From NCBI RefSeq assembly GCF_000758525.1, contig NZ_CP009241.1, positions 310,001 through 374,000 on the forward strand: a DNA stretch of 64,000 nucleotides, written 5' to 3'. The position numbers were made by a program, and so were the translations under genes. Of the stretch, positions 2,474 through 42,022 are shown one piece after another (positions within the stretch are counted from its first letter, which is position 1; every line of letters starts with the position of its first letter). A model generated the notes under the pieces. The model saw only the letters and a program-made list of their open reading frames with translations, was not told the DNA's origin and searched no databases. This DNA comes from Paenibacillus sp. FSL H7-0357. Lineage in GTDB: Bacteria; Bacillota; Bacilli; Paenibacillales; Paenibacillaceae.

Positions 2474-2544
2474 TTCTAATTCGCTCCTTCAAGCTGTATT
2501 TGCCCTTTGCGGCTGGGCTTTGATTTCATTGTAGTCTATAATAG

Positions 2545-2559: not shown

Positions 2560-2613
2560 TGAATAGAAAAGTAAATGAAGCCAATTTCAAATCATCTGAA
2601 TGGAGGCTGGCGC

Positions 2614-3573: not shown

Positions 3574-3636
3574 CAGGAAATGCTGCGGCTGTTTCTGGGG
3601 ATTAGCATACCCCAGCGGGCCGGGGGATTAACTTCG

Positions 3637-3771
3637 CTATTTGGTCACGCGGATGAATTGCTTATCCGCCAGGTCAAAGGAGCCTTCCGGCGGCAGTGGT
3701 CTGTCCGAGCCAAGGTAATGGTCAAGGGTCGTTGGGATTCACCTTCCTGAATGGTCTGCTGAATAACTTCG
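3637..3771 (-). pseudogene. Possible decayed gene remnant
   Basis: Directly behind the MocR gene on the same strand, two frames give protein-like text: NEVIQQTIQEGESQRP in one frame, and after a shift HYLGSDRPLPPEGSFDLADK ending in FIRVTK and a TAG stop at 3637-3639. There is no start codon or ribosome binding site. It looks like the frameshifted 3' end of a lost gene; the parent family is not recognised. Confidence 0.3.
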
Positions 3772-5190: not shown

Positions 5191-5295
5191 ATTATCCTCT
5201 CCATCTGTCCTTCGAAATTGAATGATTTTGTCTATTTTATAGTATACAGTCTTGCAATATCATAGAGCTACACTAAGAGACAGGAGTTGGCAGCA

Positions 5296-5850
5296 ATGAA
5301 TAAGCAGTCCGGGCTATTAAATGGAGACAAAGTGTATCTGCGTCCGCTTAACGGGGAAGATGCCGAACTGTACTACCACATGTTCTACGATAAGGAGACC
5401 CGCTACCTCACAGGCACCCAGAAGCATATCAACAAGGAACAGATCACGGGGTATATTGAGCGAAAAGCCGGGGATGACAGCGCAGTGCTTCTGCTGATTG
5501 CCCTTCAGGAGAATGACGAGGTGATCGGCGACATTGCGATTCAGGATATCGACCGGAACAACCGGAATGCAAATCTGCGGATCGCCATCGGCGACGGGAA
5601 ACATCAGGGACAGGGCTACGGCCGGGAGTCTCTGCTGCTCATGCTGGACTATGGCTTCGGGATTCTGAATTTGCACCGGATCGAACTGGAAGTCTTTAGC
5701 TACAACAGCCGTGCAATACATGTATATGAGAGCATCGGCTTTGTCCGGGAAGGCGTGCAGCGGGAGGCGCTTTTTTATAACCATGAATACCATGATGTGA
5801 TCAAGATGGGCATGCTGGAGCAGGAGTACCGGGAGCGTTATTTACGATAA
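5296..5850 (+). CDS. GNAT family N-acetyltransferase (RimJ/RimL-like)
   Basis: A 184-residue protein of the acetyltransferase fold used on ribosomal-protein N-termini, amino sugars or small amines. The acetyl-CoA loop is visible as GDGKHQGQGYGRESLLLML, followed by the conserved NLHRIELEVFSYNSRAIHVYES. The start at ATG 5296 follows AGGAG by 9 bp; a TTG at 5287 has no suitable spacing. It is divergent from the MocR gene and probably under its control. The acceptor substrate cannot be told from sequence. Confidence 0.85.
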   Translation: MNKQSGLLNGDKVYLRPLNGEDAELYYHMFYDKETRYLTGTQKHINKEQITGYIERKAGDDSAVLLLIALQENDEVIGDIAIQDIDRNNRNANLRIAIGDGKHQGQGYGRESLLLMLDYGFGILNLHRIELEVFSYNSRAIHVYESIGFVREGVQREALFYNHEYHDVIKMGMLEQEYRERYLR

Positions 5851-5851
5851 A

Positions 5852-5868
5852 GGTCAAACAAGGTCAAA
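5852..5868 (+). promoter_or_regulatory. CtsR operator, distal copy
   Basis: GGTCAAA-CAA-GGTCAAA is a perfect match to the CtsR heptad operator (RGTCAAA-NAN-RGTCAAA). It begins 2 bp after the GNAT stop codon, about 100 bp upstream of the hsp20 -35 box and 118 bp upstream of its -10 box, with a stem-loop in between. Confidence 0.85.
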
Positions 5869-5898
5869 TCGTTAAAAAAGCTAAAATTTGTAATATAA

Positions 5899-5940
5899 AA
5901 TAAGCCGAAACGCCGGGATTTGCCGGATTTTCGGCTTATT
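5899..5940 (+). terminator. Stem-loop, probable terminator
   Basis: Arms AATAAGCCGAAA and TTTCGGCTTATT enclose a GC-rich loop. No clean T run follows, so it may be a weak terminator for the GNAT gene. Confidence 0.5.
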
Positions 5941-5946
5941 CCGGTT

Positions 5947-5975
5947 TTGTCATCCAGCGGTAGCCGGACTATAAT
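5947..5975 (+). promoter_or_regulatory. Sigma-A promoter of hsp20
   Basis: TTGTCA (5947-5952), a 17-bp spacer and TATAAT (5970-5975). Transcription would begin near 5982, just ahead of the proximal CtsR box. Confidence 0.8.
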
Positions 5976-5985
5976 AAAGCCATAA

Positions 5986-6009
5986 GGTCAAATAAAGTCA
6001 AAGTCAAAA
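5986..6009 (+). promoter_or_regulatory. CtsR operator, proximal copy
   Basis: GGTCAAA-TAA-AGTCAAA (5986-6002) fits the CtsR consensus exactly, and a third heptad-like GTCAAAA abuts it. Its position at the transcription start is right for repression of the hsp20-led heat-shock locus. Confidence 0.9.
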
Positions 6010-6048
6010 TCGAGTTCAAAATTGAAGACATTGAGAGGAGAATGGATC

Positions 6049-6516
6049 ATGTTTGATTTGGTGCCTTTTGGAAAACGCAGAGATGATGTGTTTGGTGTGC
6101 TGGCTAAGTCTTTAAACGAAGTGTTTAATGATGAGTTTTTTGCTCCGATGACCGGCGCTGCCCAGTCCTTCCGGACGGATATCCGCGAGAGCGGTCAGGC
6201 CTATCTGATCGAGGCCGAGCTTCCCGGCTTCAAAAAAGAGGAAATCGACATTGATTATACCCGTCCTTATTTGACGATCAAAGCGGTACGCAAGGAAGAG
6301 GACGCTCAAGAGAACGAAGAGCATCAGGTAGTGCGCAGAGAACGCCGGTACGGGGAGTATGTGCGCCGCTTCTATGTGCAGGATATTGCCGAAGACGAAA
6401 TCCGGGCTTCCCTAAAAGACGGCATGCTGTCGCTGGAAGTACCGAAGCAGCAGAAATCTCAGGGCAAACGCATTGAGATCCAGGATAATGGTTCATCCGG
6501 AGAACAGCTTCAGTAA
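6049..6516 (+). CDS. Small heat-shock protein, Hsp20/alpha-crystallin
   Basis: A 155-residue small heat-shock protein. The alpha-crystallin domain spans about residues 40-135 (FRTDIRESGQAYLIEAELPG ... LKDGMLSLEVPK), with a short N-terminal arm and polar C-terminal tail. Such proteins form oligomers that hold unfolding proteins until ClpB and DnaK/DnaJ rescue them. The start at 6049 has GAGAGGAG 8 bp upstream. It is the first gene of a heat-shock locus with a DnaJ-like protein and ClpB, and its promoter carries CtsR operators. Confidence 0.93.
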   Translation: MFDLVPFGKRRDDVFGVLAKSLNEVFNDEFFAPMTGAAQSFRTDIRESGQAYLIEAELPGFKKEEIDIDYTRPYLTIKAVRKEEDAQENEEHQVVRRERRYGEYVRRFYVQDIAEDEIRASLKDGMLSLEVPKQQKSQGKRIEIQDNGSSGEQLQ

Positions 6517-7900: not shown

Positions 7901-10552
7901 ATGAAGGAGATGGACTTCAACAAACTAACACAAAAACTGCAGGAAGCCGTTGCAGCCGCACAATCGCTGGCGGGTGCGGGCGGACATCAGGAGATCGATA
8001 ACCTCCACCTGCTTAAGGCGCTGCTCCAGCAGCAGGATGGACTGCTGCCGCGGCTGCTGCAGAAGATGAATATTCCCGCTGCCGAGCTGCTGCAGGGTAC
8101 GGATGAGCTGCTTCAGCGGAAGCCCAGTGTCAGCGGATCGGGGGCCGGCACGATGCGGCGGTATGCTTCGCCATCGCTGATTGCCGTACTGGAGCAGGCC
8201 GAGAAGGAAGCGGCAGGGATGCAGGATGAGTTCGTTGCCGTAGAGCATGCCGTACTGGCCATGGTGTCTGTTTCCGGCAGCGGAAACCGCGAGCTGCGCG
8301 AACTGTTTGCCAGCCGGGGGATTACACGTGACAAGCTGCTGGCTGTGCTTGCGGATATCCGCGGGCACCAGCGGGTGACGAGCCGGGAGCCGGAAGCCAC
8401 CTACGAGGTGTTGGAGAAATACGGCCGCGATCTGGTGGCCGAAGTGCGGGCCGGCAAGATTGATCCCGTCATTGGACGTGACGGGGAGATTCGCCGGGTC
8501 ATCCGCATCCTCTCCCGCAAAACCAAGAATAACCCGGTGCTGATCGGGGAGCCGGGCGTAGGGAAGACGGCTATCGTCGAAGGGCTGGCTCACCGGATCG
8601 TCCGCAAGGATGTGCCGGAGGGACTGAAGGACAAGACGATTTTTTCGCTCGATATGAGTGCGCTGGTCGCTGGAGCCAAATACCGCGGGGAATTCGAGGA
8701 GCGGCTGCAGGCGGTTCTGAAAGAGATACGCGAGAGTAACGGGCGGATCATTCTCTTCATTGATGAGCTGCATACGATTGTCGGAGCAGGCAAAACCGAA
8801 GGAGCGATGGACGCCGGCAACATGCTGAAGCCGATGCTGGCCCGCGGCGAGCTGCACTGTATCGGAGCGACAACGTTGGATGAGTACCGCAAGTATATCG
8901 AGAAGGACCCGGCGCTGGAGCGCCGTTTCCAGCAGGTGCTGGTCAGTGAGCCGGATGTGGAGGACACGATTTCCATTCTGCGCGGGCTGAAGGAACGTTT
9001 TGAGGTGCATCACGGGGTCAAAATCCATGACAGCGCACTTGTAGCAGCGGGCGTGCTGTCGAACCGCTATATCACGGACCGGTTCCTGCCGGATAAGGCG
9101 ATTGATCTGGTGGATGAGGCCTGCGCAATGATCCGCACGGAGATCGACTCCATGCCGGGTGAAATGGATGAGGTGACCCGTCGCCTGATGCAGATGGAGA
9201 TTGAAGAAGCCGCGCTGAAGAAGGAAACAGACGATGCCAGCAAGCGCAGACTGGAATCCTTGCAGCGTGAATTGGCTGACCTTAAGGAGAAACATCTCGG
9301 GATGACTGCGCGCTGGGAAAAGGAAAAGTCAGCTATTCAAGGCATCCGTGAGCTGAAGAAAAAATTGGAGCAGGCGCGCAAGGACCTGGTGGATGCGCAG
9401 GAAATCTACGACCTCAACAAATCGGCGGAGCTTAGCTACGGCATCATCCCGGATCTGGAGCGGCAGGTGAAGGCTGCGGAGGAAGCGGCGCAGCAAGATC
9501 AGGAGACCCGGCTGCTGCGCGAGGCCGTGACTGAGGAAGAAATCGCGGATATCGTCTCCCGCTGGACAGGAGTTCCCGTGAGCAGACTGGTCGAAGGCGA
9601 GCGGGATAAGCTGCTGCGGCTGGAGGATACGCTGCATGAGCGGGTTGTCGGGCAGGAGGAGGCGGTCCGGCTGGTGGCGGATGCCGTACTCCGGGCCCGG
9701 GCAGGCATCAAAGACCCGAACCGGCCCATCGGCTCCTTCCTGTTCCTCGGGCCGACCGGTGTTGGCAAAACCGAGCTGGCAAAGGCGCTGGCCGTATCGC
9801 TGTTCGACCGTGAAGACGGCATGATCCGTATTGATATGTCGGAGTACATGGAGAAGCACAGCGTCTCGCGCCTTGTCGGCGCGCCTCCGGGATATGTCGG
9901 CTATGAGGAAGGCGGCCAGCTTACCGAAGCGGTACGCCGTCAGCCCTACACCGTTGTCCTTCTGGACGAGGTGGAGAAGGCCCATCCCGATGTGTTCAAC
10001 ATCCTGCTGCAGCTGCTGGATGACGGGCGGCTGACCGATTCGCAAGGCCGGGTCGTCGACTTCAAAAATTCGATTATCATTATGACCTCGAATATCGGCT
10101 CGCCGCTTCTGATCCAGGGTACCGATGATAACGGGGAGCTTACCCAGGCGGTCAAGGACAGAGTCATGAAGGAACTGAGCGGTCATTTCCGTCCCGAGTT
10201 CTTGAACCGGGTTGACGATATCGTAATGTTCAAGCCGCTGACATTGGCTGAAATTGAACAGATCGTTGTCAAGCTGGTCGACGGCTTGCGTCTGCGTCTG
10301 AGCGACCGGGGGGTTGGCCTTAAGCTAAGCGAGGCGGCGGTGCGGTTCATCGCCAAGGAGGGTTTTGATCCGGTGTACGGAGCAAGACCGCTCAAGCGGT
10401 TCATCCAGCGCAGTCTGGAGACACCTGTTGCGCGCGCCCTCATTGCCGGGGAAGCGCCGGAGGGATCCGTCCTGGAGGTTCACCATGCGGGCGGTGAGCT
10501 GAAAGTTTCCATTGCCAAGCCGGAGCCGGCGGAGAAAATAAGCACAGTGTGA
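7901..10552 (+). CDS. clpB: ATP-dependent disaggregase ClpB
   Basis: An 883-residue Hsp100 with the full ClpB order: N-terminal double Clp repeat (about 1-150), first AAA+ module (Walker A GEPGVGKT near 216), the long middle coiled coil (about 410-530) that docks DnaK, and second AAA+ module (Walker A GPTGVGKT near 617) with the C-terminal ClpB domain. The middle coiled coil separates it from ClpC and ClpE. It pulls proteins out of aggregates with DnaK/DnaJ. Starts GTG 7898, ATG 7901 and ATG 7910 are possible; 7901 has AAAGGG 7 bp upstream. It ends the CtsR-controlled heat-shock locus. Confidence 0.95.
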
Positions 10553-28733: not shown

Positions 28734-28820
28734 GAAAATAATCTCTATGCTTCCGAAGCGAGTTTTGTTCGAAGCCGATTCAGGAAGCCAATACACACAA
28801 AACTTTAAGGAGAGATGATT

Positions 28821-30275
28821 ATGGGACATTCAACAGTTTATCCAACAGGAGCAACAGTGTACAATCCGGCCAAGGCGTGGAGCGGCTATACGGTATTTCA
28901 GGCGGGTGAAGAAGGTGTAGTGCTGATCGACATGAACGGCAAAGAGGTTCATCTGTGGCAGGGGCTGCTCGGCTTTCCGGCCAAAATCCTCCCCGGCGGT
29001 TATGTACTAGGCAGCACGGGCCGGAGAGATCCGAAGTTTGGCATTCAGGATAATGTGGATCTGGTGCAGGTCGATTGGGATGGCAATATCGTCTGGAAGT
29101 ACAACAGCTATGAGCATATTGAAGATCCCGGCTATGAGCCGCTGTGGTATGCCCGTCAGCACCACGATTACCAGCGGGAAGGTAATCCGGTCGGCTATTA
29201 CGCTCCGGGGCTTGAGCCTAAGGTAAGCAGCGGCAAGACATTAATTCTCGCCCATAAGAACCTGCACAACGAAATCATCTCCAACAAAGAGCTGCTGGAT
29301 GACACCATTCTTGAAGTGGACTGGGAAGGCAAAATTATTTGGGAGTGGAAGGCCAGCGATCACTTTGCTGAACTGGGCTTTGACGAAGCGGCCCGTAATG
29401 TCCTGTTCCGCGACCCTAACACACGTTCCTTCGGTAATCTCGGCGGCGGCGTAGGCGACTGGCTGCATATCAACTCTGCATCGTACGTGGGGCTGAACAA
29501 GTTCTATGATAATGGAGACGAACGGTTTCACCCGGATAACGTCATCTGGGATGCCCGGGAAGCGAACATCATCGCGATTACGGACAGGAAAACAGGTGCT
29601 ATTGTCTGGCGGCTCGGACCGGACTATTCTCTCCCTGAAGTGAAGCATATCGGATGGATTATTGGCCAGCATCACGCTCACATTATTCCAAAAGGGCTGC
29701 CGGGTGAAGGCAATCTGCTCGTATTCGACAACGGCGGCTGGGGCGGTTACGGTCTGCCGAATCCGGCATCACCTTTCGGGCAGAAGAATGCGGTGCGCGA
29801 CCACTCCCGTATCCTGGAGATTGATCCCGTAACGTTAGAGGTCGTATGGCAATACACTTCGGCAGAGGCCGGATTCTCAGTTCCGACGGACTCCTATAAA
29901 TTTTACAGTCCTTATATCAGCTCGGCCCAGCGGCTAGCCAATGGGAACACGTTGATTACAGAAGGATCGAACGGCAGATTGTTTGAGGTTACTCCGGAGT
30001 ATGAGCTGGTCTGGGAGTATGTCTCGCCATTTACCGACCGCCGAAACACGAATATGGTCTACCGCTCCTACCGGGTGCCGTATGCATGGGTGCCGCAATT
30101 GGAGAAGCCGAAGGAAATTGCGATTGAACCCATAGATGTGACCACCTTCAGAGTGCCTGGTGCAGCGCCGAAGGGCTCGGATTCTGTAGTAAGTGTAGCG
30201 ACAACCCTGCCGTTTGTAGAAGGAGCTGCTTGTGTGGCTACCGCTGATGAGAGCGCTGTTCAGAGAGCGAGATAG
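28821..30275 (+). CDS. Arylsulfotransferase (ASST) family protein
   Basis: A 484-residue beta-propeller protein. Repeated strands carry WDGNIVWKYNSYEH, WEGKIIWEWKASDHFAELGF, TGAIVWRLGPDY and LEVVWQYTSAEAG, the pattern of the ASST family; histidines in ARQHHDY, DWLHINSASY and IGQHHAHIIPKG match the positions of active-site residues. ASST enzymes move sulfate between phenols without PAPS. Known members are periplasmic, yet this one has no signal peptide. ATG 28821 has AAGGAGAG 6 bp upstream; ATG 28815 abuts it. Neighbours point to uptake of an organosulfur or aromatic compound. Confidence 0.85.
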   Translation: MGHSTVYPTGATVYNPAKAWSGYTVFQAGEEGVVLIDMNGKEVHLWQGLLGFPAKILPGGYVLGSTGRRDPKFGIQDNVDLVQVDWDGNIVWKYNSYEHIEDPGYEPLWYARQHHDYQREGNPVGYYAPGLEPKVSSGKTLILAHKNLHNEIISNKELLDDTILEVDWEGKIIWEWKASDHFAELGFDEAARNVLFRDPNTRSFGNLGGGVGDWLHINSASYVGLNKFYDNGDERFHPDNVIWDAREANIIAITDRKTGAIVWRLGPDYSLPEVKHIGWIIGQHHAHIIPKGLPGEGNLLVFDNGGWGGYGLPNPASPFGQKNAVRDHSRILEIDPVTLEVVWQYTSAEAGFSVPTDSYKFYSPYISSAQRLANGNTLITEGSNGRLFEVTPEYELVWEYVSPFTDRRNTNMVYRSYRVPYAWVPQLEKPKEIAIEPIDVTTFRVPGAAPKGSDSVVSVATTLPFVEGAACVATADESAVQRAR

Positions 30276-30305
30276 ATTAATTCCAAAATGAAGAGGTGTG
30301 TTTAC

Positions 30306-31334
30306 TTGAAAAAATCCTGGTATGGTTCTGCTTTTCTGCTCTTATCCTTATCTTTCGTAATTTTTATGTCAGGCTGCAGTTCCAAGGGGGATGCCGCCGC
30401 GTCTGAGGGATCATCCGGCAGCAAGGAGAAGACCGTGAAAATCAAGATTGCCGACACGAATTCCAATCCGACCTTCCGTGTAGCTCTAAATAAAGGTTTC
30501 TTCAAAAATCATGGAATCGACGCGGAAATTGTCAACTTTGGCACCCCCGCAGAGGGTGTGAATGCTCTTTTCATCAAGCAGGTGGATGTATCCTACGGCG
30601 CTGATTTCCCGCTGCTGAACGCTGTTTCCAAAGGCGAATATTCGATCATTGCTTCTGCCGGTCTGGCTACCGATCAGGCTGCGGCGGCGTGGAAGCTGTA
30701 CGTGAGGGATGAGATCCAGAGTGCCGCCGATCTGAAAGGCAAGAATCTTAGCTTCCTGCGCGGAACCTTCCTACCGTATCTGTGGGATGAATACCTGCAG
30801 GAGCAGGGCATCGCGTTAAGTGATGTGAAGCTTACCGGGCAGGGGGCTTTTGACGAAGCCTTTATTGCCCTGAAGCAAGGAGATATTGATGCCGCCTGGG
30901 TCATCGGTTCAGCATTGGAAGATAAGCTGAATGCCTTAGAAGGTGTGCATCAGTTAACTGACATGTCCAAAACTCCAGTGCGGCTGGGTACAGGAATTGT
31001 GGCCGGCAATGAGCTTCTGAAGGCAAAGCCGGATGTGATCGGAGGATTCCTGGCGGCTGTTGCTGAAGCGTCAGCCTATGCCCAGGAGCATCCAGATGAA
31101 GTGGCGGATCTCATGTACGAGGAAGTGAAGCAGCCGAGAGAAAATACGCTGAAGGATCTGCCTGTTAACCCATGGGAGGTTGGCTTTACACAGGCTGCCT
31201 ATGACAGCTTGGCAGGCCAGAAGAAATACATGGTCGAGACGGGTATCATCGCACAGGACTTTGACCTGGACAGCAAGCTGAATCTGGAGCCGCTGAAGAA
31301 GGCTTTGCCGGATACAGTAACCTACGGCAAATAA
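30306..31334 (+). CDS. NMT1/SsuA-like ABC substrate-binding lipoprotein
   Basis: A 342-residue binding protein. The lipoprotein signal ends MSGC (lipobox Cys24), and the mature part follows the NitT/TauT pattern (GFFKNHGIDAEIVNFGTPAEG, ADLKGKNLSFLRGTF, ALKQGDIDAAWVIGSA). Family members bind sulfonates, taurine, nitrate, thiamine precursors or guanidine-like compounds. The start is TTG 30306, with AAGAGGTG 7 bp upstream; ATG 30288 has no ribosome binding site. ATPase and permease genes follow. Confidence 0.88.
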   Translation: MKKSWYGSAFLLLSLSFVIFMSGCSSKGDAAASEGSSGSKEKTVKIKIADTNSNPTFRVALNKGFFKNHGIDAEIVNFGTPAEGVNALFIKQVDVSYGADFPLLNAVSKGEYSIIASAGLATDQAAAAWKLYVRDEIQSAADLKGKNLSFLRGTFLPYLWDEYLQEQGIALSDVKLTGQGAFDEAFIALKQGDIDAAWVIGSALEDKLNALEGVHQLTDMSKTPVRLGTGIVAGNELLKAKPDVIGGFLAAVAEASAYAQEHPDEVADLMYEEVKQPRENTLKDLPVNPWEVGFTQAAYDSLAGQKKYMVETGIIAQDFDLDSKLNLEPLKKALPDTVTYGK

Positions 31335-31424
31335 CATGCTCTTATGAAGCGGGTTCCGAAGCCAGTTCTGACCAAGGCTGACCGAGGAGCCCTATGCTAT
31401 ACAAAACTTTTAGGAGGTGTCCAT

Positions 31425-32201
31425 ATGGCCTTAACTGCCAAGCAGAATGCCATTCATATCGAGCAGCTTCGCAAAAGCTACAGCGAGCCTGCAGCCGGAA
31501 ACGTCCATTACATTATCAAAGATGTGAATCTGGTCATTAAAGGCGGGGAGTTTTTTGTTCTGCTCGGACCGAGCGGCTGCGGGAAATCGACGCTGCTGAA
31601 TATGATTGCCGGGTTTGTCTCCAAATCCGGAGGAAACCTCAGAGTGGATAATGTTGAAGTGGATAGACCTGGCCGGGACCGCGCAGTTGTATTCCAGCAG
31701 GCAGACTCCTCCTTGTTCCCGTGGCTGACGGTGCGGGAGAATGTGGAATTTGGGCTGCGGATGAAAAAGACACCGAAGCCGGAGCGGCGCACAATTTCGG
31801 ACCGCTATATCGGGCTTGTCGGATTGAAGGGTCATGAGGAGAAGTATCCCAAAGAGCTCTCGGGCGGGATGAAGCAGCGGGTGCAACTGGCACGTGTGCT
31901 TGCGAACGATCCTGCCATCCTGCTGATGGATGAGCCGTTCGGTGCGCTGGATGCAATGACCCGGCGGACGATGCAGAAGGAACTGGTCAATATTTGGCGT
32001 GAGACGCACAAGACCATTATTTTCGTCACCCATGATATTCAGGAGGCGCTGCTGCTCGGTGAACGGATCGGCATTATGTCCGTAGGTCCATCCTCCAATA
32101 TTACGGATATTTACGACAACACGCTCTCCTATCCGCGAGATGTGGCATCACCGGAGTTCTACTCGCTGTACAACCAAATTCAAGGCCATTTCGAAGAATA
32201 G
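31425..32201 (+). CDS. SsuB/TauB-like ABC transporter ATPase
   Basis: A 258-residue ATPase: Walker A GPSGCGKST, Q-loop VFQQADSSLFPWLTV, signature ELSGGMKQRVQLA, Walker B ILLMDEPFGALD and the switch His in VTHDIQEAL. This set is typical of nitrate/sulfonate/taurine importers. The start at 31425 is fixed by TAGGAGGTG. Confidence 0.92.
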   Translation: MALTAKQNAIHIEQLRKSYSEPAAGNVHYIIKDVNLVIKGGEFFVLLGPSGCGKSTLLNMIAGFVSKSGGNLRVDNVEVDRPGRDRAVVFQQADSSLFPWLTVRENVEFGLRMKKTPKPERRTISDRYIGLVGLKGHEEKYPKELSGGMKQRVQLARVLANDPAILLMDEPFGALDAMTRRTMQKELVNIWRETHKTIIFVTHDIQEALLLGERIGIMSVGPSSNITDIYDNTLSYPRDVASPEFYSLYNQIQGHFEE

Positions 32202-32216
32202 GATAGGGTGTGAAGC

Positions 32217-32996
32217 ATGATGAAATGGATAGAGAAAAAATGGGTCTCCGTCACTTTGCTGTGGTTGGCCGCACTGGCGATCTGGCAATTGGGTGCAGTG
32301 CTCTATGGACCTGATGTGATCCCCGGACCGTGGGCTACACTTAAAGGCGGGCGGGAGCTGATTAGTGACGGTACCTTGATGAAATATATCGGCATCAGCT
32401 TCTACCGGGTGCTGGTCGGCTGGGTGCTGGGCAGTCTGATTGCCATCCCTGTAGGACTTGTAATCGGCAAAGTCCATGTAATCCGTATTTTTGCGGAGCC
32501 GTTTCTGAATTTTATCCGTTTTATTCCGCCGATCGCCTTCATTACGCTGTTTCTAGTCTGGTTCGGCATCGGAGAGCAATCGAAGATCGCGCTGATCATG
32601 TACGCGACATTTTTTATTGTGGTGTTGAATACGCTGACCGGGGTGGTGTCTGTGGAAGAGGATAAAATCCGTTCGGCACGCAGCATGGGCGCAAGTGAAT
32701 GGCAAATCCTGCTGCATGTTATCGTTCCGGCTACGACTCCGTATATTTTTACCGGCGTGCGTCTGGCGATGGGAACCTCCTACATGGCGATTATCGGCGC
32801 TGAAATGATCGCTTCGAACGAAGGCGTAGGCTATCTGATCTGGAATTCGCGGCTGTTTTTCCGCACGGACTGGATTTTTGTTGGGCTGTTCTGCCTTGGG
32901 TTTATGGGATTTTTCACCGACCGGTTGTTCAACTGGTTCGGGCGTAAGGTGCTGTATCGCTACGGTGTGGTCAGCGTGGCAGTGCGGAAGCGGTAG
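32217..32996 (+). CDS. SsuC/TauC-like ABC transporter permease
   Basis: A 259-residue membrane permease with about six helices and the EAA loop ARSMGASEWQILLHVIVPAT. It pairs with the preceding ATPase and binding protein; the operon ends at the strong terminator 33020-33053. Confidence 0.92.
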   Translation: MMKWIEKKWVSVTLLWLAALAIWQLGAVLYGPDVIPGPWATLKGGRELISDGTLMKYIGISFYRVLVGWVLGSLIAIPVGLVIGKVHVIRIFAEPFLNFIRFIPPIAFITLFLVWFGIGEQSKIALIMYATFFIVVLNTLTGVVSVEEDKIRSARSMGASEWQILLHVIVPATTPYIFTGVRLAMGTSYMAIIGAEMIASNEGVGYLIWNSRLFFRTDWIFVGLFCLGFMGFFTDRLFNWFGRKVLYRYGVVSVAVRKR

Positions 32997-33999: not shown

Positions 34000-35082
34000 T
34001 TAGATATATGAAGTCATGCCCTTTTCCTTGAGCAGATCGACGATGTCCTTGACGGATTGAGCTTTGTCCTTGGGGCAGATGAGGACCGCATCCCCGGTAT
34101 CGGCAATGATAAATCCGTCTACACCTATCGTGGTGATCAGCCGCCCGTTTCCGTAAATGATCGAATTGCGGGTATCAATGCCTATATGGTTGGCTTTAAT
34201 AATGTTGCCGGACTCATCCGGAGGGAAGATAGCGCCGAGCGCATCCCAACTGCCGATATCATTCCATCCGAATTGGCCGGACAGGACTACCACCTCGTCA
34301 GAACGCTCCAGGATTCCGTAATCAATCGAAATATTTTGAAGCAGGGGATAAATGCGGTTAATCGTCTCCGCTTCCTGATCTGTGCCAAGCGCCTCGCTGA
34401 TCGGCAGCATGGTGTTGTACAGCCGGGGCAGGTAACGCTTGAAATTATCAAGGATTACGGATGTCTTCCAGATGAAAATCCCGCTGTTCCATAAATAATT
34501 GCCTGACGCGAGATAACCCTGGGCTTTCTGGAAGTTCGGCTTCTCCACAAATTCAGCCACATCATAGACCGCTACCGGACTTGCTGAGATGGGGTCTTTG
34601 TCATAAGCGATGTAACCATAACCTGTAGAAGGAAAGGTAGGCTTGATGCCGATCGTGACAATCCGGTCACTTTCCATGGCTACCGTACAGGCCTCATCCA
34701 GCGTAAGCCGGAACTGCGGTTCATCAGTGATATAGTGATCGGAGGGCAGGACGACCATCAAGGAATCCTCTTGGGCCATATGCTGTATAGAGAACGCAGC
34801 GAACAGGATACTGGCGGAGGTATTGCGGGCCACAGGTTCAATCAGAATATTGCTCTTCTGCACGCTGCTGTGCATAATGCTCTCCAGCAGCACGGCCTGG
34901 GTGCGGTTTGTCACGATGACGGTGTTCTCCTGGGGAATAATGCCCTTGAAGCGTTCAATCGTATCGTTGAGCATGATGTCATTGCCGCTGATATTGAGCA
35001 GCTGTTTGGGAATTTCCTGTCTGGACAGCGGCCAGAACCGGGTGCCCCCTCCGCCCGCAAGGATGGTCGCGTATTTATCCAT
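34000..35082 (-). CDS. manC: Mannose-1-phosphate guanylyltransferase
   Basis: A 360-residue nucleotidyltransferase. It opens with the GTP-binding signature LAGGGGTRFWPLSR and QIPKQLL-like (EIPKQLLNI), and has the mannose-type motifs VLPSDHYI, FVEKPN, NSGIFIW and FGWNDIGSWD. It makes GDP-mannose from mannose-1-phosphate and GTP. The usual C-terminal isomerase domain is absent, so it is the single-function form. It is the last gene of a three-gene unit with a GT4 enzyme and a six-hairpin protein, overlapping the latter by 8 bp. Confidence 0.9.
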   Translation of the reverse strand: MDKYATILAGGGGTRFWPLSRQEIPKQLLNISGNDIMLNDTIERFKGIIPQENTVIVTNRTQAVLLESIMHSSVQKSNILIEPVARNTSASILFAAFSIQHMAQEDSLMVVLPSDHYITDEPQFRLTLDEACTVAMESDRIVTIGIKPTFPSTGYGYIAYDKDPISASPVAVYDVAEFVEKPNFQKAQGYLASGNYLWNSGIFIWKTSVILDNFKRYLPRLYNTMLPISEALGTDQEAETINRIYPLLQNISIDYGILERSDEVVVLSGQFGWNDIGSWDALGAIFPPDESGNIIKANHIGIDTRNSIIYGNGRLITTIGVDGFIIADTGDAVLICPKDKAQSVKDIVDLLKEKGMTSYI

Positions 35083-36184
35083 GATGGGTCACCAGATGGG
35101 CAATGGAGAAGGAAATGATGCTTTCCGACCCTTGATTCAGATTCAGTCCGCTGCTGTGGATACCGTCATAACAAGCCCCGGATTGAGGATCAATCAGCGG
35201 CAGATTTAAGGAATTATGCCCTGTGTACCATGCGTAGCATAAGTCAGCCTGCTGCAGATAAGACGGGTCCTGAAGCACGGACGCAGCCTCCCGGCAGGTC
35301 AGCAGCATTTCGCAGGCTTCAATTGGCTGCTCGTCGTAGAGAGCCGGCTCCCCGCCGCGCAGCAGCCAGCCGTGGCTGCCGATGGGCTTGTAATAGCCCT
35401 CCCGGGCAAAAGTCCGTGAAGCAAGGAAATCAAGGCTTTCTTTGGCTGTATGCTTAAGCGCAGCATTTCCGGAAAGCTTGAAAGCCCTCAGCAGCGCCCA
35501 GGGAAGCATGGAATTTCCGTACGTAAGGCTGTCTTCGTACCAGTTCCAGCCGTCTCCCTTGGTGCGGTTATACTGATTATGCAGCCGGACAGCGATGCGC
35601 TCAATCAGGCCGGTGATGAAGTCTTTGGACAGAAATGCCTTTTCCTCTGCCGTACTTGGCGTATGGGGATAGGGAAAGGAGTAGGTTAACGCGCCGGGCG
35701 TTTTGATCAGATAACTGAGGCCTACGACGGCATAAGCTACGGCACGGGGCGAACCAAGCTTTTCTATATGCGGCAGCGCCTGATTGATCAGATAACGGCA
35801 GGTATTCAGCAGGTTGTCGGGCAGAATCGACGAGTAGGAGAGTGCGAAGCCAAGCGCCCAAAGCGTACGCCCCTGGCAATCCTCGGAGCCGTTGTCCTCG
35901 AGAAATGAACGGCTATAATCCATGAAGTTCCGGAAGTTGCCCTGCTCATTTTGTGCGTGATGTATGAAGGAGAGATACGTGTGAATCAGGTCTAGCGAGA
36001 CGGTATCCTGATCCTTTTTATACAACAGAACGGCTGCAATTAAAGCACGGGCGTTGTCATCGGTCGTATAGCCCTTCGAACGGTCGGGGACGCCAAACTT
36101 GGTATGCTGGAAAATCCCCGTATCATCGGTTATTCTGCGCATGTAATCCGCCTTGAACGTTACAGCAACGGAGGTTTGCATCAA
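35075..36184 (-). CDS. Six-hairpin glycosidase-like protein
   Basis: A 369-residue protein of repeated helical hairpins with glycan-enzyme style motifs: FGVPDRSKGYTTDDNARALI near the start, WNWYEDSLTYGNSMLPWALL in the middle and GSHGWLLRGGEPALYDEQPI later. The (alpha/alpha)6 fold is used by several glycoside hydrolases and is often encoded beside GT4 enzymes in mannose-related loci. It overlaps both neighbours (4 and 8 bp), so it probably acts in the same step series. Reaction not known. Confidence 0.75.
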   Translation of the reverse strand: MMQTSVAVTFKADYMRRITDDTGIFQHTKFGVPDRSKGYTTDDNARALIAAVLLYKKDQDTVSLDLIHTYLSFIHHAQNEQGNFRNFMDYSRSFLEDNGSEDCQGRTLWALGFALSYSSILPDNLLNTCRYLINQALPHIEKLGSPRAVAYAVVGLSYLIKTPGALTYSFPYPHTPSTAEEKAFLSKDFITGLIERIAVRLHNQYNRTKGDGWNWYEDSLTYGNSMLPWALLRAFKLSGNAALKHTAKESLDFLASRTFAREGYYKPIGSHGWLLRGGEPALYDEQPIEACEMLLTCREAASVLQDPSYLQQADLCYAWYTGHNSLNLPLIDPQSGACYDGIHSSGLNLNQGSESIISFSIAHLVTHHG

Positions 36185-37365
36185 ATCACACTCCGGTCTG
36201 CCAGGCTCGCTTGCGAAATTTTCTCCTGGAAAATCGCAGCGTAGGATTTAGCGACTTCATTCCACATCATCGTTTGTCCCAGCTCATGGGTCCGTTTCTC
36301 CATGGCCTCCACTTTGGCCGGATCATCCAGCAGTTCGAGGATGCAGTCTTCCAGCGAAGCTGAATCACGGAATTTTGCCAGCAGGCCTCTGCCTTCGGCA
36401 AGCATTTCTTCGGCATAACGGTAAGGGGTGGAAACAATTACTCTTCCATAACCAACGCCATAGGCAAGTGTGCCGCTTACGGCTTGATCCTTGCCGAGAT
36501 AGGGGGTCAAGTAGATGTCGGACATCACCAGCGACTCAATAACTTCTTCCTGGGTCAACAGCTTATCGACAAAGAGCACATTATCGGACAGACCGAATTC
36601 GCTGACGAGGTCTGTCAGTTTTTGCCGGTACACTTCACCCGTTTCCAGCTTGACCACCGGATGGGTTTTGCCCCAGATGATATATAGCGCATCCGGGTGC
36701 TGCTTCACCACTCCGCGCATGGCCTGAATAGCATATTCAATCCCCTTGCCGGGACTTAAAAAGCCGAAGGTAGAGAGGATTTTGCGTTCTCCGAAACCAT
36801 ACTGTACTTTAAGCTCCGCTCTAGGGGCTGTTTTTACATAAGGTACACCGTGATGGATACAGGCGATCTTCGAATCCTCGATATTATAGATGGAGGTCAG
36901 ATCGTGCAGGGTGGATTGGGCCATCGTTACTACCTTGACACTTCCCTTTGCAATCCGGCTGATAATAAGGTGCTGCTTGGCTGTAGGTTCTCTTAATACG
37001 GTATGAAAAATAGCTACATACGGCAATTCGAGCCTTTCGATCAATGACAGCAGATATTCTCCGCTTTCCCCGCCGTAGATGCCGAATTCATGCTGGATAA
37101 CGAGCAAATGGGCGTCTGATTTGTTAAGCTCATCGGCGGCCTCTATATAGTCAGACAACTTATCTTGGTTAATTTCCCTCATGACCTGGTCGCTGTACTG
37201 GTAAGTTTCATTGTTGTTCATGGCGATAACCTGAGGCGTATTGAAGCCCGGCAGCCCGGTAAATTGATCTAATAAATCCTGGGTAAACGTAGCAATTCCG
37301 CATTCTCTAGGCAGGCTTGTAGATAGAAAAACAATGTTTCGGTTGTTGTTGTCATGATTCAACAT
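36181..37365 (-). CDS. GT4 family glycosyltransferase
   Basis: A 394-residue GT-B enzyme. The N-terminal half starts NIVFLSTSLPRECGIATFTQD and includes QHEFGIYGGESGEYL; the C-terminal donor half has STFGFLSPGKGIEYAI and SGTLAYGVGYGRVIVSTPY, the place of the E-x7-E type motif. With ManC in the same unit, GDP-mannose is the likely donor. No membrane segment is seen. TTAGGAGG precedes the start, and the message carries a hairpin leader. Confidence 0.85.
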   Translation of the reverse strand: MLNHDNNNRNIVFLSTSLPRECGIATFTQDLLDQFTGLPGFNTPQVIAMNNNETYQYSDQVMREINQDKLSDYIEAADELNKSDAHLLVIQHEFGIYGGESGEYLLSLIERLELPYVAIFHTVLREPTAKQHLIISRIAKGSVKVVTMAQSTLHDLTSIYNIEDSKIACIHHGVPYVKTAPRAELKVQYGFGERKILSTFGFLSPGKGIEYAIQAMRGVVKQHPDALYIIWGKTHPVVKLETGEVYRQKLTDLVSEFGLSDNVLFVDKLLTQEEVIESLVMSDIYLTPYLGKDQAVSGTLAYGVGYGRVIVSTPYRYAEEMLAEGRGLLAKFRDSASLEDCILELLDDPAKVEAMEKRTHELGQTMMWNEVAKSYAAIFQEKISQASLADRSVI

Positions 37366-37389
37366 AGAGAGCCTCCTAAGAATTTTTAT

Positions 37390-37423
37390 GAAAAAAAAAG
37401 AAAATAAGGAGTTCTTATTTTCT
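37390..37423 (-). terminator. Hairpin plus T9 in the leader of the GT4 operon
   Basis: On the minus strand AGAAAATAAG-AACTC-CTTATTTTCT is followed by nine T, 75 nt after the expected transcription start and 25 nt before the GT4 gene. It looks like a weak, AT-rich terminator or attenuator. Confidence 0.5.
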
Positions 37424-37472
37424 AAAGGGAAGTGGTATAAAATTTGACTTCTGCAATTTATTTCCTGCCCAT

Positions 37473-37501
37473 ACTATAACATGACCATTTTTTCTTGTCA
37501 A
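37473..37501 (-). promoter_or_regulatory. Promoter of the GT4-ManC unit
   Basis: Minus-strand TTGACA, 17-bp spacer, TATAGT. Its -35 box adjoins that of the divergent XRE promoter. Confidence 0.75.
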
Positions 37502-37534
37502 TTTATTGACTCTCCTCTGTTCTCCAGATATAGT
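37497..37534 (+). promoter_or_regulatory. Divergent XRE promoter with shared palindrome
   Basis: Plus-strand TTGACT (37506-37511), 17-bp spacer and TATAGT (37529-37534). The two back-to-back -35 boxes create the palindrome GTCAAT-TT-ATTGAC (37497-37510), a possible operator. The start point would leave only a short leader ahead of the ribosome binding site. Confidence 0.6.
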
Positions 37535-37552
37535 GATGTAGGAGGTGAAGGA

Positions 37553-37849
37553 ATGCCGGTTATACGCAGTAAATTAAGTGAGGTTATGGAGAAACATGAC
37601 CCCAAATTATCGATCCGCAAGCTTGCCAAAGAAATTAACTACCATTTCGATTCCGTCCGGCGGATGTACAAAGACGAGATGGTGCAGTATCCCCGGGATC
37701 TGCTGCTGAAGCTCTGTACCTATTTCAATATCCAGCCCGGTGAATTGATCCGGATGGAAGCGGATGAGAACGATTGGGCGATAGATAAAGCAAACGAATA
37801 TGAGGAGGAAGGCAATGACAAGGAGACCGTTCAAGACGGCAACCTGTAA
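37553..37849 (+). CDS. Small XRE/Cro-type HTH regulator
   Basis: A 98-residue DNA-binding protein: LSIRKLAKEINYHFDSVRRM is the helix-turn-helix, followed by YPRDLLLKLCTYFNIQPGEL, typical of Cro/C1 regulators. The acidic tail reads into the next gene. ATG 37553 is set by TAGGAGGTGA. It overlaps the DUF1861 gene by 35 bp and is divergent from the GT4-ManC unit, so it is the likely regulator of this mannose cluster. Confidence 0.85.
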   Translation: MPVIRSKLSEVMEKHDPKLSIRKLAKEINYHFDSVRRMYKDEMVQYPRDLLLKLCTYFNIQPGELIRMEADENDWAIDKANEYEEEGNDKETVQDGNL

Positions 37850-38759
37850 CGAACTGCTGGACACCTTTTATGCTAGGCTCCGTCATGTGAGCGTGGAGAA
37901 GCTGGTTTTTTCCGGTGTTGGAAAACGCGATGTATACAATATAACGGCCCCGTTTGTACATGACGGGGAGGAAGTGATTCTGGGAAGAGTTGAGGAACGG
38001 GACAGTGAGTTCTCTCAAGTCTTCTTTTTTACACTCCGCGATGGCGTCTGGATACCCCGTGCGCATACACATACCTATAATCTGCAGGACCCTTGTGTAA
38101 CCCACATCAAGGGAGAACTGATTGTAGGCGGGGTTGAAGTGATTACCGCAGGGGATGACCCGCAGAAAATCGTCTCGTGGGTTACGCAGTTCTACCGAGG
38201 GTACCGGATTGATTCCATGCGCCACTTCTCGTCCGGGCCGGCAATGATGAAGGATATCCGGCTGATAGAGCTTCAGGACGGCCGGATCGGTGTATTCACT
38301 CGGCCGCAAGGAGAGAAGGGCGGAAGAGGGATGATCGGCTTCACGATTATCGATTCGCTGGAGGAATTAAATGAGCAGACCTTTCTGGAAGCGGAAATAT
38401 TTCAAGATCAGTTTGTTCCCGAGGAGTGGGGCGGGGCGAATGAAGCGCATTTATTGAAGAACGGTCATGTAGGTGTTCTGGGACATATCGCCTGTTTTGA
38501 CCGCTTAGGAAAAAAACATTACTACTCCATGGTCTTCTCGCTTAATCCCGGTACGTTTGAAACTACTCCGGTTAAAATTATTGCCGCCAGGAGTGACTTT
38601 CCGATCGGTCCCGGCAAACGCCCGGATCTTCAGGACGTCATCTTTAGCGGCGGACTGGTACGGGGTGAGCAGGGCCGGGCGGTATTGTCAGTGGGCGTCA
38701 GCGATGCCGAAGCCTACAGAATTGAACTTCCTGACCCCTTTTTGGAGTATGAGCAATAA
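37815..38759 (+). CDS. DUF1861 five-bladed beta-propeller protein
   Basis: A 314-residue protein that fits the DUF1861 family, which belongs to the five-bladed propeller clan of GH43/GH130 glycosidases and phosphorylases. Visible motifs are VYNITAPFVHDGEEVILGRV, DPCVTHIKGELIVGGVE, YRIDSMRHFSSGPAMMKDIR and WGGANEAHLL. The first resembles the start of mannoside phosphorylases. ATG 37815 follows AGGAGG by 6 bp. Placed opposite a GT4/ManC unit, it probably acts on or binds a mannoside. Activity unproven. Confidence 0.8.
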   Translation: MTRRPFKTATCNELLDTFYARLRHVSVEKLVFSGVGKRDVYNITAPFVHDGEEVILGRVEERDSEFSQVFFFTLRDGVWIPRAHTHTYNLQDPCVTHIKGELIVGGVEVITAGDDPQKIVSWVTQFYRGYRIDSMRHFSSGPAMMKDIRLIELQDGRIGVFTRPQGEKGGRGMIGFTIIDSLEELNEQTFLEAEIFQDQFVPEEWGGANEAHLLKNGHVGVLGHIACFDRLGKKHYYSMVFSLNPGTFETTPVKIIAARSDFPIGPGKRPDLQDVIFSGGLVRGEQGRAVLSVGVSDAEAYRIELPDPFLEYEQ

Positions 38760-38799: not shown

Positions 38800-38843
38800 T
38801 CTAATGACAAGAATTTATGGTCGAAGAGAGCGGGAAAACAAAA

Positions 38844-39431
38844 ATGAGTAAATTTATTCTATTGAACAATCGTACGGAAGAAACACAGTCCAACTTGAAC
38901 GTCGCAAGAAAGCAAGGACGGATCCCGGCTGTGCTGTATGGTATTGGTAAAGATACTCTAAGCCTTGAAGTGGGAGAGAAAGAGCTGTTGAACGTGATTA
39001 GAACCAACCCGCGGGCAATCCTTCAAGGGAAATTGTCCGACGATACGGTGGTTCCGGTAGTTGTTCAACATATCCAGAAGGATTCCATTTCAGGAAAAGT
39101 GCAGCACATCGATTTTCAGCATGTGAATATGTCGATCAGTATGGACAGCAAGGTAACAATCCATTTTGCCGGTGAAGCTGCTGGTGTCAAAGCTGGCGGG
39201 GTACTTCAAGTTGAAATCTATGAAGTAGAAGTTCGCTGCATGCCGGGCGATCTGCCTTCTTCCATGGAAGTAGATATCAGCGGTCTGGAAATTGGCGACC
39301 AGTTGGCTGTCTCCGATCTGATCTTCCAGAAGGGCATTGAGGTGCTGACGGATCCGAGCACAGTAATGATTCAGATCAAAACAGTACATGAAGAAGTTGA
39401 AGAACCGGCGGAGACTCCGGCTCAAGTATAA
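38844..39431 (+). CDS. 50S ribosomal protein L25 / general stress protein Ctc
   Basis: A 195-residue protein with the N-terminal 5S-rRNA-binding L25 domain (about 1-92, RKQGRIPAVLYGIGKDTLSL) and the C-terminal TL5/CTC beta domain (about 95-185, VEVRCMPGDLPSSMEVDIS). In Bacillus, Ctc is induced by stress and binds 5S rRNA. The start ATG 38844 gives MSKFILLNNR; the ribosome binding site is weak. A terminator follows. Confidence 0.92.
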   Translation: MSKFILLNNRTEETQSNLNVARKQGRIPAVLYGIGKDTLSLEVGEKELLNVIRTNPRAILQGKLSDDTVVPVVVQHIQKDSISGKVQHIDFQHVNMSISMDSKVTIHFAGEAAGVKAGGVLQVEIYEVEVRCMPGDLPSSMEVDISGLEIGDQLAVSDLIFQKGIEVLTDPSTVMIQIKTVHEEVEEPAETPAQV

Positions 39432-39531: not shown

Positions 39532-41856
39532 TTATACGGGAACCACCCGTGTGCTTTGTTCCATAGGGGAGCTGCAGAGCGGGCAGGGCTTGGAGGATAA
39601 GTGATCCTCGGCTCCGCCGGCTTTCATCCGGGTCCAGCCCGGGCAATTTGTACCGGTGCATTTCCAGACGGCAACGGTATGGGTTCTTCCCGCTGACGTT
39701 CTGGTGGAGTTGTGCTCTGTTCTGGTATACCCGCTTCTTAGTCCCGATACAGCAGGCGCAGAAGAAGCTACGGCAGAGCGGAAGGCGGACAGCATAAAGC
39801 GGGAGACCTCGGCTTTTTTGCCCCGATGCCTTGCCGGCGAGCTGATGAACAACTCTTCCCGTGCTCTCGTGACGGCAACATAGGCCAGTCTGCGTTCTTC
39901 TTCCAGCGCCGCAATGCCGGACTCCGGCCCGGTCTTCAGGGGGCTGCCTACTGTCGATTTTACTGTCTTCCGGTCCTTCAGCCGGTCACCCTCCAGCGCG
40001 GAACTGTGGGGAAGAATCCCCTCAGAGGCTCCGATCAGGAAGACTACCGGAAATTCCAGCCCTTTGGATTTGTGGATGGTCATGAGTGCAATCCGGTTGC
40101 CTTGCTCTTTCAGGCCGGTCTGGCGGCTCAGCTCATTCCGCTCGGTAATGTTATCGATAAAATCAAGGAAGACGGTGATATTGTCGAACCGTTCCGCTGA
40201 GGTTTCCAGCTCGTCCAGCATTTCCTTTAGCGTTTCCCGGTGCAGTGTAGCCTGATGACGCTCATTGGCTTCAATGAAGTAATCATAGAAGTTAATGCGG
40301 ATCTGGCGGATAGCCTGTACTGGAGTTACGCTGCCCAGCCCCCGGATCAGCTCCAGCCGTTCCCGCAGCTTGGTCCCTTTGAAATCCTCCATGCCGGGCA
40401 TCGACAGCAGATGGATCAGCGGCCCCTGCTTGGGCTGGATGGCCTCCATCCGGCGGATATGGTCCATGCCCTTTTCCCGGTTCATGTAGAGCGTCGGCAG
40501 AATATTCTCCATCGCGGCAAAGTTCCGGCGGTTCACGGACAGCCGCAGGTGGTCCAGCACGGGGGAAATCAGCCAATGCTCGTAGAGCAGCTGGCCTTCA
40601 CCGTAATCAATGTAGGGAATATCGCGCAGCAGCAGCAGCTCCAGAATCGCCCGGTTGCTGCTCGACGCCCGGTACAGCAGTGCGAAATCGCGGTATTCCC
40701 GGGAATGGCCGTCAACCTGGCTTACAATATGCTCCACAATTTGCTCGGCTTCCTCGTCCGCCGTCTGCGGGCGCAGGTACCGGGGCGGGCTGCCGCCATT
40801 TTTGGCCGCTTGCAGCGTTTTGGAGCGCCGCCGCGTATTATGCCGGATGATTCCGTTGCCCAGCCCGACAATCGCCGGACCGGAACGGTAATTGATATCC
40901 AGCGTAATAACCTTTGCGCCCGGATAAAGCTTCTCGAATTCAAGAATGAACTCGCTGCGCGCTCCGTTAAATGAGTATATCGTCTGGTCATCATCCCCGA
41001 CGACCATCAGATTATGCTGCGGATGGGCGATCATTTTGACGAGTTCATATTGCAGCGCATTCGTATCCTGAAACTCATCAACCATTACATATTGAAATTT
41101 ATTCTGCAATTCCTGCAGTAGCGCCGGCTGCTCCCGCAGCATCCTGTAGGCAATCAGCAGCACATCGTCGAAATCAATTTTGTGATTATCCCGTTTCCAC
41201 TGTTCATACAGGGCCAGGACGGCCTTCATTTCCTGCTCGGCGGTTGTAGTTTCCGGCAGATTCTCCGGCTCACCCATATTCATCTTGCAGGAAGAGAGCA
41301 GGGCAAGCAGGGTTTCCGGCGGATAAGCATCCTTTGGCAGCCCCAGCTCGCGCATGATCTGCTTCAGCAAAATGTGCTGGCGGCGTGTCTCATGGAAGAT
41401 GTCCTGCCGCAGACCCTGACGCCTCAGGAAATAGAGGAAAAAGGAGTGGAACGTGCGGGCCTGAAGGCGCGCTGCGTCGTTTTCGCTCACGCCCGGCAGC
41501 ACTGCAATGCGTTCGCGCATTTCCGCTGCCGCCTTGCTGGAGAAGGTCAACAGCAGCAGGCGGCTGGGGGATATGCCGCGCACCGACAGCAAATAACCGG
41601 TTCTGCAGATCAGAACCGAGGTTTTGCCGGAGCCTGCCCCGGCCAGTGTCAGCAGCGGACCCTGGTAATGCCGCACTGCGGCGATCTGCGGCTGATTCAG
41701 CAGAATTCCGCCTTCCTCCAGCAAACGGAAATAAGCCGCATCGCCATCCTCCGGCTTCACCATCTCGCGGCTGGTCCGGGCTGAGGCGATTGCCGCCTGG
41801 GGAATCCGTTCGCCGGTAGCGCCCAGCGGTATATTATGAAATAAGAGCTTGTTCAT
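39532..41856 (-). CDS. UvrD/Rep-family DNA helicase with C-terminal zinc ribbon
   Basis: A 774-residue superfamily 1A helicase. Motifs in order: LTLAGAGSGKTSVL (Walker A), VMVDEFQDTNALQYEL (Walker B), VVGDDDQTIYSFNGA, LDINYRSGPAIV, LMTIHKSKGLEFPVVFLIG and YVAVTRAREELFIS. A basic linker leads to a small CxxxxC/CPLC zinc ribbon at the end (WKCTGTNCPGW ... KPCPLCSSPM). It resembles Bacillus YjcD more than PcrA. It likely acts in DNA repair or replication restart. ATG 41856 has GAAGGTGA upstream. Confidence 0.9.
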   Translation of the reverse strand: MNKLLFHNIPLGATGERIPQAAIASARTSREMVKPEDGDAAYFRLLEEGGILLNQPQIAAVRHYQGPLLTLAGAGSGKTSVLICRTGYLLSVRGISPSRLLLLTFSSKAAAEMRERIAVLPGVSENDAARLQARTFHSFFLYFLRRQGLRQDIFHETRRQHILLKQIMRELGLPKDAYPPETLLALLSSCKMNMGEPENLPETTTAEQEMKAVLALYEQWKRDNHKIDFDDVLLIAYRMLREQPALLQELQNKFQYVMVDEFQDTNALQYELVKMIAHPQHNLMVVGDDDQTIYSFNGARSEFILEFEKLYPGAKVITLDINYRSGPAIVGLGNGIIRHNTRRRSKTLQAAKNGGSPPRYLRPQTADEEAEQIVEHIVSQVDGHSREYRDFALLYRASSSNRAILELLLLRDIPYIDYGEGQLLYEHWLISPVLDHLRLSVNRRNFAAMENILPTLYMNREKGMDHIRRMEAIQPKQGPLIHLLSMPGMEDFKGTKLRERLELIRGLGSVTPVQAIRQIRINFYDYFIEANERHQATLHRETLKEMLDELETSAERFDNITVFLDFIDNITERNELSRQTGLKEQGNRIALMTIHKSKGLEFPVVFLIGASEGILPHSSALEGDRLKDRKTVKSTVGSPLKTGPESGIAALEEERRLAYVAVTRAREELFISSPARHRGKKAEVSRFMLSAFRSAVASSAPAVSGLRSGYTRTEHNSTRTSAGRTHTVAVWKCTGTNCPGWTRMKAGGAEDHLSSKPCPLCSSPMEQSTRVVPV

Positions 41857-42022
41857 TAGATTCACCTTCGTTTGTTTACAATACGGGTTTGGTTTAATTT
41901 TTAGCCAGTTTACACTATACCACTGTATTTCCCTTTCTGTATAGAACAGCCGATTTATGAGATAAAAGATCAAATATCCGTTTGGCCGCTATGTTATTTT
42001 TGGAACAGAGGAGGGAACACCA

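Follow-up and report, generated by a model that had tools for sequence, protein, structure and literature searches.

A conserved GT4, SIXH, ManC and DUF1861 gene module in Paenibacillus and its possible role in a beta-1,2-mannoside cycle

The 64,000-nucleotide stretch analyzed here (the window; positions 310,001 to 374,000 of contig NZ_CP009241.1) comes from the single-contig, 7.69 Mb genome of Paenibacillus sp. FSL H7-0357 and contains two divergent sets of overlapping genes (Table 1). In transcriptional order, the minus strand encodes a GT4 family glycosyltransferase, an (alpha/alpha) barrel protein called SIXH here and a ManC-like guanylyltransferase, and the plus strand encodes an XRE-type regulator followed by a DUF1861 protein. 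An earlier note, made from the sequence alone, had read these genes as a mannose-glycan cluster. All five of its open reading frames (ORFs) exist, Pfam and NCBIfam scans agree with its family calls, and the overlaps that it described are real (TGATG for GT4/SIXH, 8 nt for SIXH/ManC and 35 nt for XRE/DUF1861), while three start sites were corrected with the help of ribosome-binding sites and an internal promoter. For XRE the most likely start is 37553, where AGGAGGTGAAGG precedes the ATG, and the previous ORF from 37481 is probably too long, because a sigma-70-like promoter sits inside it. The start of DUF1861 is most likely at 37815, downstream of GAGGAGGAAGG, which leaves the overlap with XRE in place, and that of SIXH is most likely the ATG at 36181.

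Table 1. Features of the module and its conserved neighbor, in window coordinates.
Feature	Position	Strand	Remarks
ManC-like mannose-1-phosphate guanylyltransferase	34000..35082	-	360 aa, without isomerase domain
SIXH, (alpha/alpha) barrel protein	35075..36181	-	368 aa from ATG; ORF to 36184 from TTG
GT4 family glycosyltransferase	36181..37365	-	394 aa
Sigma-70-like promoter TTGACT-N17-TATAGT for XRE-DUF1861	37506..37534	+	read from sequence
XRE/HTH_26 regulator	37553..37849	+	98 aa; HTH_26 E 2.1e-11
DUF1861 (PF08950) protein, GT108-type five-bladed propeller	37815..38759	+	314 aa
bL25 (Ctc) gene, conserved neighbor	38817..39431	+	TIGR00731, 149.6 bits

The two half-clusters are conserved together, as the earlier note had supposed. 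Among 60 genomes searched, the source included, nine carry a close orthologue (SIXH at 76% or above) and all nine show the divergent ManC, GT4 and DUF1861 arrangement, more than chance would give; XRE was called in eight of them (not in L055) and bL25 adjoins in eight. The survey places the source closest to Paenibacillus species, its SIXH being 85% identical to that of P. helianthi. A wider set of named loci comprises the best 80 of at least 567 confirmed, ranked by SIXH similarity, and shares several genomes with the close-relative set. GT4 lies directly beside SIXH on the same strand in all 80, a guanylyltransferase-type gene (a match of at least 100 bits to ManC or hexapeptide-type profiles built in this analysis) lies within five genes of SIXH in 73, and a propeller gene lies within the same distance in 65, being DUF1861 in 40 and GH130 in 25. 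By a rough null based on the single DUF1861 and the six GH130 places in 7.69 Mb, a randomly chosen point would have a propeller gene within 10 kb about 2% of the time. An accidental adjacency of the half-clusters, which would suit their opposite strands and the existence of some Cohnella and Paenibacillus GT4-SIXH-ManC loci without an adjoining DUF1861, is contradicted by this survey and by the colinear orders that also occur, namely DUF1861-GT4-SIXH (L057), GT4-SIXH-DUF1861 (L127, L129, L151) and GT4-SIXH-ManC-DUF1861 (L118, L120, L121, L125, L126), and is scarcely credible.

The DUF1861 protein matches PF08950 at 384.4 bits, against a gathering cut-off of 28, and is 33-37% identical to the Leishmania MPT/MTP enzymes of mannogen turnover (CAZy GT108), from which it differs in being bacterial and in lying beside GT4, SIXH and ManC. 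Its predicted structure is a five-bladed propeller as in MPT-1, -2 and -4, a fold that also fits GH130. The catalytic Asp of MPT-2 (D94) aligns to D97/D92 of the window protein, in a column that is Asn in the D94N chain of 6q4z and is conserved in 88 of 88 aligned DUF1861 sequences, and R168 is of the phosphorylase type. From the predicted fold and the active-site set we infer the reaction of a predicted beta-1,2-mannoside phosphorylase/mannosyltransferase. The earlier note had described DUF1861 as related to GH130-type enzymes, which does not hold by sequence; the protein groups with the Leishmania GT108 enzymes. Assignment to GH130 was rejected, there being no PF04041 match at E 0.1 and an hhalign probability of 7.4% against 15 module GH130 proteins. 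DUF1861 shares with the GH130 beta-1,2-mannoside phosphorylases (7fip, 9fj8, Lin0857) and mannosidases (BT3780) the fold and, in a weak and non-significant profile alignment, corresponding Asp, Lys, Arg, His and Asp columns. A search of DUF1861 for module-specific residues gave N249 versus Asp as the sole separator of module from other members.

In a midpoint-rooted tree of 88 sequences, module-linked DUF1861 proteins form a clade of 40 (support 88), mostly with the divergent order, and a second clade of eight (support 100) with the order GT4-SIXH-ManC-DUF1861 or GT4-SIXH-DUF1861, and the L057 protein lies inside a mostly non-module group with weak internal support. Either DUF1861 has joined the same pair repeatedly or an old link has been followed by losses, and either history speaks for a common substrate. 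The tree places the two Leishmania segments with bacterial paralogues linked to ATP-binding cassette (ABC) genes (L069, L062, L077 and others; joint support 100) and not with the module lineages. No DUF1861 ORF was called in L058, L060 and L065, whose proteins entered the tree from other frames and which are left out of the 21 non-module loci counted below. In L096 (P. baekrokdamisoli), a 37-residue DUF1861 match in a 68-aa frame lies between bL25 and XRE, touching the XRE ORF (about 8219-8329 if the record coordinates agree), and is apparently what remains of a module gene since lost.

In many other Bacillota, the place of DUF1861 is taken, by profile matches, by a GH130 of the beta-1,2-mannoside phosphorylase kind. 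The 40 DUF1861-type loci belong to Paenibacillus, one Cohnella, two Saccharibacillus, two metagenome-assembled genomes (Bacilli/Bacillota) and two strains named Bacillus, and the 25 GH130-type loci to Thermoanaerobacter, Caldanaerobacter, Clostridium, Sporomusa, Pelosinus, Propionispira and others. In a phylum sample, SIXH occurs in 92 of 398 genomes. Sixty of these 92 were fetched (without G000 and G001) and SIXH was called in 55, with L223, L229, L235, L244 and L256 dropped. GT4 lies within five genes in 53 of the 55 loci, adjoining or fused in 52 and fused in 11; GH130 lies within that distance in 29, a guanylyltransferase-type gene in 40 and DUF1861 in none. The DUF1861 form therefore seems centred on Paenibacillus and its kin; DUF1861 passes the cut-off in 12 of the 398 genomes, two of which carry the module (the window's genome and G001). 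Ten proteins scanned from such loci include four phosphomannomutases, one ManC-phosphomannomutase fusion and one mannose-6-phosphate isomerase. For the beta-1,2 model NF052550, GH130 matches of 1e-40 or better occur in 89 of the 92 SIXH genomes and in 50 of the 306 others, these being related genomes. Among seven GH130 proteins examined in loci of this kind, the best-scoring model is beta-1,2-mannobiose phosphorylase for five and BtaManbiosPhlase for two (L131, L152), a cut-off being passed solely by the two of L147 (Thermoanaerobacter). With these GH130 partners on one side and the likeness to GT108 on the other, both propeller families point to beta-1,2-mannosides. The source genome itself has seven GH130 matches at six places, none in the module.

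Some GH130 domains are part of larger proteins. In L245 (8569-12057, plus strand), the domain, nearest to 7fip and 9fj8, is fused behind a conserved region of about 850 aa, and similar fusions of about 1,160-1,210 aa occur in L238, L241, L242, L249, L251, L254, L257 and L209. The region matched no Pfam family in the four proteins scanned, and its start appears GT-A-like by eye (GIPFYNE...GDPAG...LEADL). Such a region may represent an unrecognized glycosyltransferase, which would place synthase and phosphorylase in one chain.

The window SIXH matched no Pfam or NCBIfam family. It is modelled as an (alpha/alpha) barrel with a pLDDT of 94.1, and the structure nearest to the model is 7tem, a "putative exported protein" with no named function. 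Ten acid columns are at least 95% conserved, and the sole His column to reach 80% is H27 (53 of 60). The catalytic residues used for comparison are the Asp-Asp pair of GH76 and the His pair of AGE. An AGE-type 2-epimerase was rejected, as SIXH has no invariant His pair. A GH76 alpha-mannanase was rejected as well: the profile match of 95.9% spans 112 columns in a shifted register where the Asp-Asp pair is not conserved, and PF03663 gives no match in the window protein and weak ones in 13 of 60 aligned members (best 2.5e-5). The GT4 protein matches Glycos_transf_1 (E 3.3e-14), and its closest solved relative by sequence is the GDP-mannose-dependent PimB', a weak match at E 1.5e-4; a comparison of profile A2 with PDB sequences aimed at the donor gave no match at 1e-10. 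GT4 enzymes usually carry the EX7E glutamates. In the alignment with PimB', S297 stands at the place of the first and a gap at that of the second, and the family has instead, at residues of about 287-308, an invariant PY.G..Q..SGTLAY..G.GR, so that donor use or chemistry may be unusual. The ManC-like protein matches Pfam NTP_transferase (131.7 bits) and ManC_GMP_beta-helix (78.6 bits) and reaches 333.5 bits with TIGR01479, under the cut-off of 372.95; three distant relatives (28-31%) are encoded elsewhere in the source genome.

The reading that we hold moderately probable is a cytoplasmic beta-1,2-mannoside (mannogen-like) cycle. ManC, by its family, would turn mannose 1-phosphate into GDP-mannose, from which GT4 would start or extend an oligo-mannoside; the pairing of GT4 with SIXH is observed, and SIXH would share this glycan as its substrate, perhaps to trim or rearrange it. 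DUF1861, as a GT108-type inverting enzyme, would phosphorolyse terminal beta-1,2-mannose, and the mannose 1-phosphate released would return to ManC; in the reverse direction it may add mannose from GDP-mannose or mannose 1-phosphate. The XRE protein would probably control expression from the divergent promoter. Two promoter boxes and a ribosome-binding site, in one strict pattern, were matched in 14 of 23 intergenic regions, that of the window among them, and XRE and DUF1861 overlap by 4-71 nt in 25 of the 28 named loci with both called on one strand, as measured from the starts of a longest-ORF gene caller that can miss or lengthen genes and overstate overlaps; in the other three (L120, L121, L126) they are 4.4 kb apart. 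The suggestion of the earlier note that the cluster could make and recycle a mannoside stands for the genes, their linkage and their families, and for the chemistry we infer it.

The earlier note had allowed for an intracellular or a surface product, and the surface is the less likely place: by hydropathy, used without a signal-peptide program and with no search aimed at export genes, none of the five proteins has a hydrophobic stretch resembling a membrane segment. A surface or secreted mannan, or a protein glycan decoration, drawing on the GDP-mannose of ManC is very unlikely on this ground, although ManC and GT4 are usual in such clusters. Its recurrent neighbors do not favor it either, since besides the five genes of the module only bL25 and a UvrD-type helicase recur next to it in most of the nine close relatives, the flanks being mostly unannotated. 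The same lack of membrane-like stretches would suit a small mannoside solute, protectant or signal, made by GT4 and remodelled and recycled by SIXH and DUF1861, and so would the frequent presence of bL25 (within five genes of SIXH in 40 of the 80 named loci), since bL25/Ctc is a general stress protein. Such a solute is nevertheless improbable, as the Leishmania relatives act on beta-1,2-mannan chains (PMC8950772) and PMC4264767 describes Teth514_1788 as a phosphorylase of 1,2-beta-oligomannan.

The main rival is salvage only, in which imported beta-1,2-mannosides are converted by DUF1861 to mannose 1-phosphate and by ManC to GDP-mannose, used by GT4-SIXH for an ordinary glycan, with no endogenous mannan. 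It is the published reading of a Thermoanaerobacter cluster with its own ABC genes (PMC4264767). The phosphorylase-type R168 would fit it, and so would the ABC transporter that, with a phosphodiesterase-like gene, flanks the module in four of the nine close relatives (L052, L054, L055, L056); in L052, which was scanned, two ABC permeases, a TOBE_2 ATPase and a type I phosphodiesterase-like gene lie downstream of ManC at 2324-6066. Against it, the ABC genes near the window module (30288-32996) include an NMT1-type binding protein and are shared, among the nine, with L053 alone, and sugar-ABC-like genes (blastp, five query proteins) lie within five genes of SIXH in 4 of the 80 named loci, a count of locus neighborhoods and not of whole genomes. 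We consider salvage alone rather unlikely.

Several points weigh against the mannoside cycle, beginning with the ABC and phosphodiesterase-like flanks just described and with the relatedness of the genomes, which makes counts non-independent throughout. The cycle is read from gene families, gene linkage, predicted folds and active-site residues. No propeller gene lies within five genes in 15 of the 80 SIXH loci, of which seven belong to Paenibacillus, Cohnella and a strain named Bacillus; the GT4-SIXH-ManC core can therefore do without DUF1861. Eleven of these 15 genomes were searched, and nine of the 11, including the seven, hold DUF1861 elsewhere, while two of the 15 loci have a GH130 farther out. 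GT4 enzymes are retaining, and GT4 alone cannot form a beta link from GDP-mannose, so that the synthetic beta step would fall to DUF1861. The curated NF052550 cut-off is passed by only 32 of the 398 genomes, and the profile probability between DUF1861 and GH130 is low despite their aligned active-site columns. Outside the module, 17 of 21 DUF1861 loci in relatives (L059, L061-L064, L066-L076, L080) lie within six genes of a gene for LacI, a solute-binding protein, GH130 or GH2; these paralogues probably break down external beta-mannosides, and plain breakdown fits their setting as well. A storage role by complementarity with glycogen is unsupported, glgA being present in 43 of the 92 genomes with SIXH and in 177 of the 306 without it (p 0.07 by Fisher's test, without phylogenetic correction); the window's genome carries glgA.

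The membership of bL25 in the module is unproven. The gene recurs beside GT4-SIXH, as in L130, L131, L134, L136, L139 and L142, and does so in some clostridial loci in another gene order. The UvrD-type helicase ORF (39532-41973, minus strand, 813 aa) has a C-terminal stretch matching YdjO (PF14169), a pairing that we have not met before. On the other side, at 28815-32996 (plus strand), an arylsulfotransferase-like gene is followed by the NMT1-type ABC transporter operon, and L053 has this whole set beside its module too.

The earlier note knew of no description of this gene set, which in the literature searched holds for the DUF1861 form and not for the GH130 form. The Thermoanaerobacter cluster Teth514_1785-1796 contains, according to PMC4264767, a GT4, a guanylyltransferase, two proven beta-1,2-mannoside phosphorylases (Teth514_1788 and 1789, shown active on 1,2-beta-oligomannan) and hypothetical proteins, read as a GDP-mannose salvage pathway. 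Common to both is a GT4 beside a mannose-1-phosphate guanylyltransferase and five-bladed-propeller mannoside enzymes. That cluster has two GH130, a GH5, an ABC transporter and a hexapeptide-type nucleotidyltransferase, whereas the window module has DUF1861, XRE and ManC and neither GH130 nor a sugar ABC transporter. Loci of other Thermoanaerobacter strains (L147, L148, L154) have the order GH130-GH130-guanylyltransferase type-GT4-SIXH, which in L147 is the published gene order, and by position Teth514_1785 is probably SIXH. The literature searched, which covered few subscription journals, yielded no description of the DUF1861 form, of the GT108/GH130 exchange or of how widely GT4-SIXH is spread.

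A broader idea, which we put forward tentatively and with some doubt, is that Bacillota make their own cytoplasmic beta-1,2-mannan, as a mannogen of bacteria, with a GT4-SIXH core and an exchangeable GT108/GH130 propeller that builds and phosphorolyses it, and that bacterial members of this family gave rise to the mannogen enzymes of Leishmania. Sernee et al. (2019), the study that defined GT108, reportedly suggested that Leishmania received these genes from Gram-positive bacteria, and to that extent the evolutionary idea has a precedent. The founding members of GT108 are Leishmania enzymes, and Pfam still labels the family as of unknown function; its bacterial setting points to the same chemistry. 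Because two propeller families with no significant sequence match swap beside the same partners, beta-1,2-mannosides may be made inside many bacteria, beyond being eaten. If true, this would suggest a function for the common SIXH family and would bear on the origin of the parasite pathway.

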